NCBI RefSeq assembly: GCF_002959915.1 | Contig: NZ_PPDE01000003.1 | Span: 1-64,000, forward strand | Reading direction: 5' to 3' | Length of the DNA: 64,000 nt | DNA from: Veillonella atypica KON | GTDB lineage: Bacteria > Bacillota > Negativicutes > Veillonellales > Veillonellaceae | Shown here: positions 82 to 45,907 of the stretch, piece after piece | Position numbering within the stretch: the first letter of the stretch is position 1 | Layout: every line of letters starts with the position of its first letter | Notes under the pieces: model-generated | The model's database searches: none | What the model saw: the letters and a program-made list of their open reading frames with translations, nothing else | What the model was told of the DNA's origin: nothing | Made by a program: the position numbers and the translations under genes

Positions 82-552
82 CTATTTTACCGGCTCACCC
101 GTAAACGGGTCGGTATATTCTTTAAAGTTTAATGTATCTTGTGCTATATCTTCTTGTAATTGATTGCGAATATACTCTTTTATCGCTCCTTCGTATCTTC
201 CCACTGTATCCACATAATATCCTCTACACCAGAAATGTCTATTTCCATACTTATATTTTAAATTTGCGTGTTTATCGAATATCATGAGGCTACTTTTGCT
301 TTTTAAATATCCCATAAAACTTGATACACTTAAATGTGGTGGAATAGTTACTAACATATGAATATGATCCGGACAGCATTCTGCCTCTATAATCTCTACA
401 TTTTTTCTATTACATAAATCTCTTAAAATTTTACCTACATCAGCTTTTATCCGTCCATAAATTATTTGCCTTCTATACTTTGGTGCAAAAACAATATGAT
501 ATTTACATCTCCATTTACTATGTGATAAGCTTTTTACGTCATTCATTGACAT
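82..552 (-). CDS. tnpA: IS200-type transposase TnpA (HUH/Y1)
   Basis: Single-strand transposase of 156 aa, the usual size. It has the HUH motif as HIH at residues 63-65 (CPDHIHMLV) and the expected catalytic tyrosine at residue 127 in EYIRNQ, the same position as in characterised IS608-type TnpA. The frame is open upstream to 705, but AGGAGG (557-562) sits just before ATG 552 (and a second ATG at 546), so the protein starts there. The ribosome site can pair with an upstream complement (see the leader entry), which fits the tight translational control known for IS200. The gene is complete and probably functional. Confidence 0.9.
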   Translation of the reverse strand: MSMNDVKSLSHSKWRCKYHIVFAPKYRRQIIYGRIKADVGKILRDLCNRKNVEIIEAECCPDHIHMLVTIPPHLSVSSFMGYLKSKSSLMIFDKHANLKYKYGNRHFWCRGYYVDTVGRYEGAIKEYIRNQLQEDIAQDTLNFKEYTDPFTGEPVK

Positions 553-6904: not shown

Positions 6905-8173
6905 TTAGAACGGGAATAGGATTGGCAATAATACTAATGCTACAATACTAGACACGACAATGAGTGGTAAACCAGCTTTCACATAGTCCATGAAGCTATA
7001 ACCAGCTATATTATATACCATAGTATTGGCCGGCATACCAATTGGTGTAGCATATGCTAAGGAGCTAGCGATTACGATAGCTGCAAGCACCGCTTTTGGA
7101 TCGAATCCCAATTGAGATGCTAAGCTAAGACCGATTGGTACCAATAATGCACAGGTAGCAGTATTAGACATGAAGTTCGTCATGAACACACCAAGTACAA
7201 AGATTACTACTAGAACAACAATTGGAGATGGACTAGCACCAAGGCTGTTTACGATAAGATCTGCAATTACAGAACCAGTACCTGTTTTAACCATTGCGTC
7301 CCCAAGGGCCATAGAGCCAGCGAAGAGCATGATTGTTTTCATATCTATAGATTTAACAGCTGCACTTTCACTAATAACATTAGTAGCAACTAATACAAGC
7401 GCACCTATCCAGGCACTTACATAAAGTTTTACACCTAATTGTTTTTCAAAGATCATAGCACCAACTGTCAAAATTAATACAATTGCAGCAGTCCATTTTT
7501 TCCAAGATGGTACATGACTATAATCATCATTACCTTCAAAGGCACCATCTGGTTGATGACTTGGAGCATCTGGTAAGAAACGTTTACCAATTGTAGCATA
7601 GAAAATAGTACCAACAATTAGAATTGGCAAACCTACTAGACCATAATCAAAGAAACCAAAAGAGCCTAGGCCCGCTTGTTGTAAGCCCGCTTGCGCAATC
7701 ATATTGCCAGGAGCGCCGATAAGTGAAATATTACCACCCATAGCTGCAGCAAATACAAGAGGCATCAATAATTTAGTTTGTTTAAAACCACTTTTTTTAC
7801 AAATACCAATAATTACAGGAATTAGTACAGCAGCTGTACCAGTATTAGATAAGAAACCAGATAATATACCTGTAATCATCATAACAGCAACGAGCAAAGA
7901 CGTTTCAGTTTTGGCAAACTTATGAACTACATTACCTACACCCACTGCTACACCAGTTGCAAAGAAGGCTTCACCAATAACAAACATGCCCATAAATAGT
8001 AAGACATTTGGATCTACAAAACCGGCGAATGCTTCTTTAGCGGATAAGACTCCACTTAAGTGCAAACCTACTGCTACAACCATAGCAGTAATAGATAATG
8101 GGATTTTCTCCCATGCAAACATGACGATGGCAAATACCAAGAAGCCAAGAGTTATCATTACACTCGTATCCAT
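6905..8173 (-). CDS. SLC13/DASS-family anion transporter
   Basis: Inner-membrane sodium:dicarboxylate-type symporter of 422 aa. It has two homologous halves, each with an SNT motif (LSNTGTAAV and MSNTATCALL), which in this family bind substrate and sodium. The start at 8173 follows GGGAGG; the longer frame to 8233 has no ribosome site. It stands behind the class I fumarase genes, which predicts uptake of fumarate, malate, tartrate or a related acid. A hairpin in the 100-nt gap may reduce read-through. Confidence 0.85.
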   Translation of the reverse strand: MDTSVMITLGFLVFAIVMFAWEKIPLSITAMVVAVGLHLSGVLSAKEAFAGFVDPNVLLFMGMFVIGEAFFATGVAVGVGNVVHKFAKTETSLLVAVMMITGILSGFLSNTGTAAVLIPVIIGICKKSGFKQTKLLMPLVFAAAMGGNISLIGAPGNMIAQAGLQQAGLGSFGFFDYGLVGLPILIVGTIFYATIGKRFLPDAPSHQPDGAFEGNDDYSHVPSWKKWTAAIVLILTVGAMIFEKQLGVKLYVSAWIGALVLVATNVISESAAVKSIDMKTIMLFAGSMALGDAMVKTGTGSVIADLIVNSLGASPSPIVVLVVIFVLGVFMTNFMSNTATCALLVPIGLSLASQLGFDPKAVLAAIVIASSLAYATPIGMPANTMVYNIAGYSFMDYVKAGLPLIVVSSIVALVLLPILFPF

Positions 8174-42616: not shown

Positions 42617-42846
42617 GTAGTTGGACTATGTGTTGTAGTAGAATGCATAGATTGTAATGCAATTGATTTTATACCCTTCTTCGGTGCAATCGAAAATAAT
42701 TATTATTACATTTTGTAATATCAAAATACAAATATTTATATATATAATTGTGACTATGGATACGTTTTCAAGTATTACATAAGCGTATAATGTACATATA
42801 AAAGTTTCTATATATGCTTAATAAATATAAGCCAAGAGGTAGTACT

Positions 42847-44400
42847 ATGATTACAGAAGAAGTAAAAGAACGTTTAATTGCAGATTATCCAAAGTTTGAA
42901 GATATGACACGCAAGTTTTATAAGAAAGAGATGTCTATTGCGGACTATAAGGGCCAGTCCGGCGCATATGGTAGCTACGCCGAACGTGGTGCTGCTACGG
43001 GCATGAGCCGTTGGCGTTTTAATTGTGGTCGCATCAAACAAGAACAAATGCGGTTCTTAGCAGATACTATCCGCAAGTACAATCTTACACATATTCATTT
43101 CACAACTGGTCAATGCTTACAAATGCATGGACTCGATGGGGAAACTATTTTACAGCTCTTCAAGGAATGTTATGAACATGGCATTTATAATCGCGGTGCA
43201 GGCGGCGATAATCCAAATGTAGTAGCCAGTATCTTACGCGGCATTGATCCTCGCGAGACCTTTGACATTTCACCATATGCGGCAGCCATTAGCGAATTTC
43301 TTATGGAGCAAATGTTTTATATCAAGATTCCCCGTAAATTTAAGATGGGTATCGATAATGGATTTGATAGCACACCACATGCTACCTTTAAGGATCTGGG
43401 ATTCAATTTAACAAAACATCATACCTTTGATGTATATGCGTGTGGTGGTATTGGTCCTAATCCTCGCATCGGTATTCCCGTAGCTCGTGATGTGCAACCT
43501 GAGGATGTTTTATATCATGTGAAAGCTATGCTCATGGTATTTGCAAACCATGGTAACTTTAAAAATCGCGGCAAAGCACGTACCCGTTATATGCCTGCAG
43601 AAATGGGGGGCGCGGAAGCTTTCATCAAAACCTATGAAGAAACATTGGCAATGGTGAAAGAGGTTGAAAAATTGACCATTAATCCTGCAGATTATGCTTA
43701 TGAAATTACGAAGACGGGCAAGCGCGATGATTCGGTAGAAAATCATCGTATTCATCGTCAAAAACAAGAAGGTCTGTACTTTGTAGAATACCACCCAATT
43801 GGTGGCGATGCGAACGTTGAACATATATTGGCGGCCCTTGATTATGCTGTTACATTAGACCAAGTGGAGGCTCGCATTGCACCGGATGAAGCCTTGTTTT
43901 TCATCAATTTGACCGCTGACGAAGCTAGAAAAATTGCGGAATTAACAGATGATAGCGCACGCGATGATTTTCGTCGTTCCGTATCCTGTGTGGGCTCTAC
44001 AGTTTGTCAAATCGGAATGCAAGATTCTAATGGTTTGCTAAAGGCTGTCTTTGATCATCTTGAAGAAAAAGGTATTGATACGAAAAAATTGCCGCGAGTA
44101 CATATTTCTGGTTGCCCACATTCTTGTGGGACTCATCAAATTGGGGAAATTGGATTTCACGGTGCTGTAAAACTCGTAGATAAGAAACCACAACCTGCTT
44201 TCATCATCGTAGATGATGGTTCAGAACATATGGGTTCTGAAAGTTTTGGTAAAATGGCTGGGAATATTGTAGCTGCAAAAATTCCAGCATTTATGGAGGC
44301 GTTAGCCAATATACTTAATGAGGCACCAGAAGCGGATTTTGGTTCTTGGCGATTGACTCATAAGACTCAATATATGGAACTTGTAAAAGCATTTGAGTAA
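42847..44400 (+). CDS. siroheme sulfite/nitrite reductase
   Basis: A 517-aa assimilatory-type reductase with two ferredoxin-like half domains. The coupled 4Fe-4S/siroheme site is given by C381-X5-C387 (CVGSTVC) and C423-X3-C427 (GCPHSC). The start at 42847 follows AGAGGTAGTACT. Sulfite and nitrite enzymes of this family are hard to separate; the neighbouring cystine-type symporter slightly favours sulfite. Its last codons are part of the long inverted repeat that follows. Confidence 0.88.
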   Translation: MITEEVKERLIADYPKFEDMTRKFYKKEMSIADYKGQSGAYGSYAERGAATGMSRWRFNCGRIKQEQMRFLADTIRKYNLTHIHFTTGQCLQMHGLDGETILQLFKECYEHGIYNRGAGGDNPNVVASILRGIDPRETFDISPYAAAISEFLMEQMFYIKIPRKFKMGIDNGFDSTPHATFKDLGFNLTKHHTFDVYACGGIGPNPRIGIPVARDVQPEDVLYHVKAMLMVFANHGNFKNRGKARTRYMPAEMGGAEAFIKTYEETLAMVKEVEKLTINPADYAYEITKTGKRDDSVENHRIHRQKQEGLYFVEYHPIGGDANVEHILAALDYAVTLDQVEARIAPDEALFFINLTADEARKIAELTDDSARDDFRRSVSCVGSTVCQIGMQDSNGLLKAVFDHLEEKGIDTKKLPRVHISGCPHSCGTHQIGEIGFHGAVKLVDKKPQPAFIIVDDGSEHMGSESFGKMAGNIVAAKIPAFMEALANILNEAPEADFGSWRLTHKTQYMELVKAFE

Positions 44401-44665
44401 ATATGCTTTCCGCTTGTGATAGGGCCCCAGCAATTGAGCAGATATTATGTCGTTTGCTATGAGGCCCCGTTTCACTACGACAACTTAATTAAAAATAAAA
44501 CTAGGTATCTCCTTGCTCCGTCCTTCGTAAAGTCGCTGCAGAAATACCTAGTTTTATTTTTATAACACCTGCTATGAATTAGTCCCATAGCAATCGACTA
44601 TTTTCTCTATATATTGCTGGCTCCCTATCACAAGCTACATTTGATCTTTACTCAATATGCTTTTA
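44384..44665. repeat. long inverted repeat A with conserved tip
   Basis: A ~280-nt imperfect palindrome. The central 17-bp perfect stem (44492-44508 with 44544-44560) surrounds a 35-nt loop whose complement reads TGCAGCGACTTTACGAAG then GACGGAGCAA. Outer arms also pair: 44412-44433 with 44613-44635, and 44384-44400 (the last codons of the reductase gene) with 44648-44665. Element B has the same loop in the other orientation. Confidence 0.9.
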
Positions 44666-44684
44666 TGTGATGGGGAAAGGGAGA

Positions 44685-44795
44685 GACTAGCCTTCGGCTA
44701 GTCCTTCCCCTACGGTGGGCATGGCATCACTACTCTAAAGCCTAGCCGCAGGCTAGCTTCTTCCAGATGGAGGGCGTGGCGCCATTAGTTTAAAG
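44685..44795. repeat. imperfect tandem 56-bp repeat between A and B
   Basis: Two units (44685-44740 and 44740-44795) agree at about 70 percent of positions. Each starts with a CTAGCC/GGCTAG hairpin and ends in TAAAG. Confidence 0.7.
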
Positions 44796-44807
44796 CTTTT
44801 TTATATA

Positions 44808-45048
44808 AATCAATCGGGTTATCTAGGTGTTATGTGTTTAAAGTGTGTAGTTCTATTTTGATGGGACGCCTTTATAAATATGGTTATAAAAAAGTACGAA
44901 TATACTTGTGCAGCGACTTTGCGAAGGACGGAGCAAGCAAGTATATTCGTACTTTTTTAACTAGGTTGTAGAAATGAAATGGGGCCCCATCAAAATAGGG
45001 AGAATAACCTTGAAAAGCATATGTTGCCTAGATAACCCTTGATTGATT
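44808..45048. repeat. long inverted repeat B with conserved tip
   Basis: A ~240-nt imperfect palindrome. A perfect 21-bp stem (44888-44908 with 44938-44958) holds a 29-nt loop containing GCGACTTTGCGAAGG and ACGGAGCAAG. Outer pairs: 44808-44827 with 45027-45048, and 44853-44865 with 44986-44998. The right arm reaches the promoter region of the next gene. Confidence 0.9.
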
Positions 45049-45091
45049 GTGTTATAATAGGCTTTATAGTAGTGTTTGGAGGATTTATCAG

Positions 45092-45907
45092 ATGTTATTT
45101 ACCGTCAATACAGAAGTCTGTACACGATGCGGCCTTTGCGTAGCTGACTGTCCGACAGGCTTGCTAGTGATGTCCGAGAATGGGCCTGTGACTGGCAAGG
45201 GAGGTTGTATCTCCTGTGGGCATTGTATTTCCGTATGCCCAACGCTTGCTCTTGATAGTGATATGACACCACGTAAAGAGCAAATCGATATCACAAAAGA
45301 ACAAAAATTAACGCCAGAGCAAGCTGAGTTATTCTTGCGCAGCCGTCGCTCTATTCGTAATTATTAAAATAAACCAGTTCCTGCTGAATTGATTCGCAAG
45401 GTATTGAATGTGGCTCGTATGGCGCCAACTGCGACAAATACGCAAGGAATTTCATATATCGTGATTCGGGATAAACAAAAATTACGCCGCATTGCAGATC
45501 TCGTTCTTGAGTGGATGCATTTAGCGGCAAAAACTGTGCCGATTATGCGTCTTTATGCTCGTGCAGCACAAGCTGAAGTGGATAAGGGTAAGGAATACAT
45601 CTTGCGCGATGCGCCTGCGTTAGTAGTGGCTATCGGTTCTAAAAAGGATATTCATCGTACTCACGATAGTGGTCATTCTTGCTTGTCTTATGCAGAGTTG
45701 TATGCACCAACATTAGGATTAGGTACTTGTTGGGCAGGCTTCTTTGAACATGCTGGGGAAGCAGAATATGAACCATTATTGGACCTATTAGGTGTACCTG
45801 AGGATAAAATCATTGCTGGTGGTATCTTGATGGGCTATCCAAAGGTTCGTTACCGCAATATTGTGGAACGCCAACCATTGGATGTTACATTCGATACTGA
45901 AGAATAA
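45092..45907 (+). pseudogene. ferredoxin-nitroreductase fusion with internal stop
   Basis: The frame would encode a 271-aa protein: two 4Fe-4S motifs (CTRCGLCVADCP at about 9-20 and CISCGHCISVCP at about 41-52), then an FMN nitroreductase domain from RSRRSIRNY onward. Codon 92 is TAA (45365-45367), in the same frame on both sides; NY-stop-NKPVPAELIR continues the family consensus, where the stop replaces a residue commonly Lys (AAA). A ribosome site GGAGG precedes ATG 45092. Either a recent nonsense mutation or a sequencing error; the downstream part could be re-initiated at ATG 45389. Confidence 0.85.

Follow-up and report, generated by a model that had tools for sequence, protein, structure and literature searches.

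A dispersed palindromic repeat of Veillonellaceae with a conserved centre and variable arms that may be maintained by DNA-level copying

Integron attC sites combine variable paired arms with conserved unpaired parts and lie in sense orientation behind genes. REPs show a similar sense placement behind genes to that reported here (PMC3733652), and template switching between inverted repeats is reported to homogenise the arms and invert the spacer (PMC8604942), as well as to create and maintain perfect stems (PMC8794818). Here we describe a family of palindromes, represented by two copies in a 64,000-nucleotide stretch of the Veillonella atypica KON genome (the window), which is similar to REPs and MITEs in how large its members are, how they are dispersed and where they lie, but reverses the usual rule that the arms are conserved. 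Searching open-licence papers, we found no earlier account of Veillonella repeats or of elements with a conserved loop and variable stems; this is apparently the first description, in the literature searched, of a dispersed Veillonellaceae repeat family with the reverse of REP and MITE anatomy.

Two nested palindromes beside nirA

Elements A (44384-44665, plus strand) and B (tip at 44909-44936, minus strand) are inverted, nested palindromes. They are flanked by a nitrite/sulfite reductase-like gene (42814-44400) on one side and, on the other, by a ferredoxin/nitroreductase gene starting near 45093. Gene calls were ORF-based, and the identities of both genes were read from their own sequence. 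The features of the locus are as follows.

42814..44400, plus strand: nitrite/sulfite reductase-like gene (nirA), upstream of A
44384..44434, plus strand: outermost left arm of A, with the 3' coding end of the reductase gene at 44384-44400
44459..44489, plus strand: left flanking block of A (GAGGCCCCGTTTCACTACGACAACTTAAT...), aligning with the blocks at nir B, dnaB, hcp, hydE and ligA
44490..44511, plus strand: inner left arm of A (22 nt)
44513..44540, plus strand: conserved tip of A
44541..44562, plus strand: inner right arm of A, with one C-A mismatch against the left arm
44563..44590, plus strand: right flanking block of A, terminating in GTCCCAT and aligned across loci
44613..44665, plus strand: outermost right arm of A, mirroring the gene end and the bases beyond it
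44728..44744, minus strand: shorter second mirror copy of 45058-45074 (16/17 nt)
44783..44827, minus strand: outermost arm of B, mirroring 45027-45074 (score 36, shuffle maximum 25)
44853..44873, minus strand: middle arm of B with the GTCCCATC end, placed by pairing and cross-locus alignment
44887..44908, minus strand: inner arm of B (3' arm on the minus strand), perfect over 22 bp
44909..44936, minus strand: conserved tip of B, located by pattern match
44938..44959, minus strand: inner arm of B (5' arm on the minus strand)
44960..44998, minus strand: flanking block and middle arm of B (GATGGGGCCCCATTTCATTTCTACAACCTAG), placed by pairing and cross-locus alignment
45027..45074, plus strand: extended -10 promoter-like region of the ferredoxin/nitroreductase gene, which is also the outermost arm of B, with its mirror copy at 44783-44827

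The original prediction described two inverted copies with a common tip and common flanking blocks, and both were found in place: the 28-nt tip TTGCTCCGTCCTTCGNAAAGTCGCTGCA occurs without mismatch at 44513-44540 (plus strand) and 44909-44936 (minus strand), where shuffled sequences gave an expectation of 0.00 matches. Its description of the stems as unrelated and perfect needs one amendment. The inner arms, 22 nt each, are indeed unrelated in sequence between A and B, and those of B (44887-44908/44938-44959) are 100% complementary; those of A (44490-44511/44541-44562), however, are 95% complementary, with a single C-A mismatch near the tip. Additional paired layers lie at 44412-44434/44613-44635, 44853-44873/44978-44998 and 44816-44827/45027-45038, and the RNA folding z-scores of A and B are -12.0 and -13.0, respectively.

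Two features of the palindromes were overlooked in the original prediction. The outermost left arm of A takes in the 3' coding end of the reductase gene, its 51 nt scoring 49 when aligned with the reverse complement of 44613-44665 (shuffle maximum 28). B extends to 45074 and mirrors the promoter-like region of the next gene, in which TATAAT stands at 45053-45058, preceded by TG. The same reductase gene, nirA, also neighbours the other Veillonella copies at the nir locus. As a separate observation, a premature in-frame stop splits the ferredoxin/nitroreductase gene after B (45047-45367 and 45389-45907), and its orthologues at the other nir loci of Veillonella have no stop at that point.

Conserved centre, range and placement of the family

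A full-length core of about 145 bp is common to six loci (nir A, nir B, dnaB, hcp, hydE and ligA) and is laid out as GATGGGGCCCC - ACAACTTAGTTA - arm - CTTGCTCC...AAGTCGC - arm - TTATAAC - GTCCCATC; with arms, elements measure up to about 280 bp. Across the six-locus alignment, conservation is confined to the unpaired parts and does not extend to the arms. The conserved centre spans 28-40 nt, with GCTCC and AAGTCGC enclosing a variable apical loop, and 7-bp ends (GATGGGG/GTCCCATC) are common to the aligned copies. Divergence per site is 0.04 in the tip against about 0.14 in the arms at nir B, and 0.045 against 0.10 at glmM; between loci it is 0.095 against 0.57. Conservation of the tip thus exceeds that of the arms 2-4-fold within loci and 6-fold between them, and the tip does look like the part that has been selected, or that is shared by descent. 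Downstream of glmM (L181-L190), several genomes also carry a structured, GC-richer block, GAGCTTGCGACGATGAAGCCCACACATCACTTTGTTCCGAGCG...CAGCGAGGAACC, beyond which the genes differ among genomes, resembling an insertion hotspot.

The original prediction stood to fall if related genomes held no further copies. Allowing up to 3 mismatches, the tip occurs twice in the window's genome and is present in 11 of 14 Veillonella genomes, and in none of the other genera tested within the order; named matches are V. rogosae, V. parvula SKV38 and Veillonella sp. T11011-6. Covariance models, the first built from 25 gap-free aligned copies and the second from 66 copies, detect far more divergent copies than the tip pattern does. 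In these the apical loop has been swapped for other hairpins, while GCTCC on its 5' side and AAGTCGC on its 3' side are retained. At E≤0.001 the second model had hits in 21 of the 28 genomes from the window's GTDB family, against 0 of the 33 remaining genomes of the order; the E-values are rough, and copies may be missed since only the best candidates per genome were scored. Copies number about 1-30 per genome at a looser limit, a count that includes some second-strand matches of the same palindrome. According to the covariance-model matches, the tip motif is also present in other genera, with unrelated arms.

Rfam searches at the gathering score and at E≤10 or E≤5 gave no credible match, the weak ones being to unrelated families. 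The exact tip pattern was not found in viral contigs, and blastn against phage and plasmid records returned no match. The sole exact match outside Veillonella, in an Acidobacteria MAG, is apparently coding (lon-like by eye) with no visible hairpin, and we dropped it as a chance hit.

With ORFs of 90 codons or more counted as genes, the gene 5' of a copy is on the same strand for 111 copies and on the opposite strand for 21. Counted as independent co-directional neighbourhoods, placement is sense in 37 and antisense in 6 (p=1.6e-6), element B being among the antisense exceptions. Copies follow the stop codon at a median distance of 54 nt, often within 15 nt, and 89 of 134 stems are followed by a T-run; many of the copies that lie 3' of genes with a T-run may thus also terminate or protect transcripts. 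At hcp the element is situated past that gene's own simple terminator, and so is not simply the hcp terminator. Replication as the determinant of orientation was set aside after inspection of complete-genome coordinates, which gene direction appears to fit better. Intrinsic termination alone was rejected, because the tip is missing from simple hairpins at the same genes and their mismatch spectrum is different. Downstream of hcp (hydroxylamine reductase-like; L227-L238) there is, separately, a conserved hairpin with a near-constant loop, CCCCTCTCTYTTATATGAT, whose arms appear to covary; it precedes the simple terminator in most Veillonella genomes and is possibly a small RNA or 3'-UTR element.

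Covariation, mismatches and marks of template switching

Stem covariation, which the original prediction had put forward as a test, is strong. Among 25 copies, 20 of 27 pairs have changed on both sides and 95% of cells pair, giving a covariation score of 0.715, compared with 0.202 in shuffles and at most 0.203 for slid partners. Selection on an RNA fold tolerates G-U pairs and removes A-C on the transcribed strand. Scoring G-U and A-C alike, we counted 2258 Watson-Crick pairs, 39 G-U, 61 A-C and 9 others in 115 distinct tip-bearing stems, whereas a small control set of 39 simple tip-less hairpins behind genes at the same loci gave 582 Watson-Crick pairs, 32 G-U and 4 A-C on the sense strand. 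With related stems collapsed, the counts become 32 G-U and 36 A-C distinct events, which differ from the control (p=2e-5); with one representative per cluster they are 11 and 14 (p=4e-4). Unlike simple terminators, the 115 tip-bearing stems thus show no G-U preference on either strand, so RNA-strand selection does not explain their pairing, which looks as though it was made at the DNA level. As an aside, ordinary Veillonella terminators (L175, L177, L192 and others) are often unusually long, near-perfect hairpins of up to about 20-24 bp, and their arms are wholly different between species at the same gene.

Several loci carry marks of such a process. A single pair at nir B is G-C in G000, A-C in G011 and A-U in G018, which reads as the path of one arm-homogenisation change. 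At hcp, the 145-bp cores of G016 and G010 match at 97% identity after one is inverted but at only 69% in direct alignment; their flanks are collinear, at 89% and 92% identity, and one base pair differs between the two genomes in both arms. Host sequence is mirrored in the outer arms at the nirA end (A), at the ferredoxin/nitroreductase promoter region (B) and at the dnaB end, the last by a one-point margin (score 29 against a shuffle maximum of 28). The corresponding alignment at hydE scores 34, under its shuffle maximum of 37 (2000 shuffles), and is only suggestive of a mirror copy. Half-elements at hcp and hydE start or stop near the tip or within a flanking block. Together, the inverted core, the host mirror copies, and the half-elements and empty sites support a DNA-level origin of the pairing.

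These observations leave two parts of the original prediction without support. It had taken the kept pairing as an argument for selection on the fold; the failure of G-U to exceed A-C, the spacer inversion and the host-copied outer arms do not bear this out, being signatures of template switching between palindrome arms, which yields covariation even where nothing is selected. A structured RNA, which it had also offered, finds no support in the mismatches of the stems when these are set beside the control, though the tip may still be one. Covarying stems are the standard proof of selection on an RNA fold, and the strong covariation of this family bears the marks of mutation instead. This makes the family well suited to gauging how far replication by itself can generate covariation.

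The copies also differ in their presence among genomes. At ligA-gatC the element is found in G014 and G015, and 12 orthologous sites are empty; no clean target-site duplication was seen at ligA, the single insertion site examined closely. At hydE the whole element is present in G014 and G015, a remnant remains in G018, and the other genomes shown lack it. Unrelated simple hairpins occupy dnaB and glmM in other species, and at dnaB in G017 a different core stands within the same outer arms. These empty sites, remnants and replaced cores indicate that copies have spread and been replaced, and the empty sites and dispersed copies favour the mobile hairpin that had been among the possibilities raised for A and B.

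We found no enzyme that would mobilise the element. Y1 transposases of the IS200 type, present in 12 of 14 genomes, do not track copy number among them; we rejected them as the motor because they are absent from the copy-rich G008 (about 30 copies) and G014 (about 14). The window itself holds an IS200-type Y1 transposase domain at 160-516 (minus strand), and there are 12 matches in this genome. Elsewhere, tip-bearing hairpins with long apical arms bracket the dnaA-dnaN-recF region (L084, 680-797 on the plus strand and 7078-7195 on the minus strand), the DNA between them holding these ordinary genes and no visible transposase. Similar tip-bearing hairpins lie near the dnaA-proximal contig end in other genomes (L089, L092 and L156), and several of those in the dnaA region are not behind a sense-oriented gene.

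Origin of the arms and comparison with known systems

On balance, we think that A and B are probably copies of a REP/MITE-like dispersed element in which centre and unpaired blocks are conserved, while copying at the DNA level keeps the arms perfect and extends them. Arm sequence would then be arbitrary, rather than inherited as a sequence paired by selection. A hairpin formed during DNA synthesis would allow the polymerase to switch template and copy one arm onto the other. Such switching would keep the arms perfect while letting both drift jointly, would occasionally invert the core, and would lengthen the palindrome outward into mirror copies of adjoining host DNA. The conserved unpaired blocks beside the centre are GATGGGGCCCC...ACAACTTAGTTA and TTATAAC...GTCCCATC. 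We infer template switching as the process behind the arms, and the tip is probably the part that is recognised or selected, as the site for a mobilising or binding protein or as a hairpin-forming feature. The main fact that template switching leaves unexplained is the strict sense orientation. This would fit a role at transcript level, and could reflect a transcription-linked bias in where insertions occur, damage done by copies placed otherwise, or a transcript-level role of the tip. We also entertain, more tentatively, a mobile 'seed', heritable only as hairpin centre and unpaired blocks, that builds its arms by copying local DNA backwards; were this so, every copy would wear host-derived arms, and the structure would be inherited but the sequence would not.

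Selection on a transcript, by contrast, strikes us as unlikely to have produced the stems. A 3'-UTR or terminator-linked hairpin, with a protein binding its tip or an RNase cutting it, would be expected behind genes in sense orientation, and copies there do often stand within 15 nt of the stop codon, carry T-runs after 89 of 134 stems and covary strongly; their conserved unpaired blocks beside variable helices also resemble a structured RNA. Yet neither strand of the stems prefers G-U, as nearby simple terminators do (32 to 4), the core is invertible, the hcp element lies beyond its gene's own simple terminator and no Rfam family matches. It is highly improbable that the copies are merely generic terminator hairpins of the genus, their tip common through recent recombination among loci. 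Long, fast-changing simple hairpins are indeed common at the same genes in tip-less species, but these differ in mismatch spectrum, other genera also carry the tip motif between unrelated arms, and the flanking blocks are present at six loci.

Selection on folded single-stranded DNA, as a site for a recombinase or HUH transposase of attC-like or REP-like kind, agrees with mismatches that have no strand bias, with the conserved centre and unpaired blocks, with dispersed copies and empty sites, and with a sense position behind genes, as in REPs (PMC3733652). We nevertheless regard it as unlikely, considering that no partner enzyme was found, Y1 transposases do not track copy number, no GTAG or CGTC foot motif was seen, and selection alone leaves the mirror copies of coding DNA unexplained. 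A folded-DNA recognition site or an RNA role of the tip may nonetheless hold alongside the preferred reading of DNA-level copying, with which each is compatible.

Like REP, BIME and REPIN sequences, the members are short, non-coding, dispersed palindromes, mostly behind genes and often neighbouring in opposite orientation (PMC3733652); inverted pairs occur, and placement downstream is mostly sense (37 against 6 antisense). REPs, however, have an unpaired GTAG/CGTC tag at one end and sequence-defined arms, whereas here the centre is conserved, the arms are locus-specific, there are few copies and we found no RAYT partner. Inspection of the alignments revealed no GTAG/CGTC foot tag, the common motifs being GCTCC...AAGTCGC and GATGGGG/GTCCCATC, and no linked Y1 (RAYT) transposase was encountered, the Y1 domains being IS200-like and missing from the copy-rich G008 and G014. 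With MITEs and other small mobile sequences (RU, NEMIS/Correia type) the family shares a length of 100-280 bp, non-coding content, dispersal, inverted ends (GATGGGG...GTCCCATC) and insertions with empty sites (ligA-gatC and hydE). MITEs retain terminal inverted repeats and make target duplications, whereas here the arms are rewritten and can consist of the host DNA next to them, with no clean target duplication at ligA. Variable paired arms, conserved unpaired parts and a sense position behind genes recall integron attC sites, but here the tip is conserved instead of base boxes, and the neighbours are core genes rather than cassettes.

The remaining likeness is to quasipalindrome correction by template switching. 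The family shows both outcomes that PMC8604942 reports, homogenised arms and an inverted spacer, together with perfect stems and compensatory changes like those of PMC8794818. In contrast to known template-switch mutation, the process would here operate time after time on a single dispersed family whose centre is conserved, and would extend its arms into the ends of host genes.
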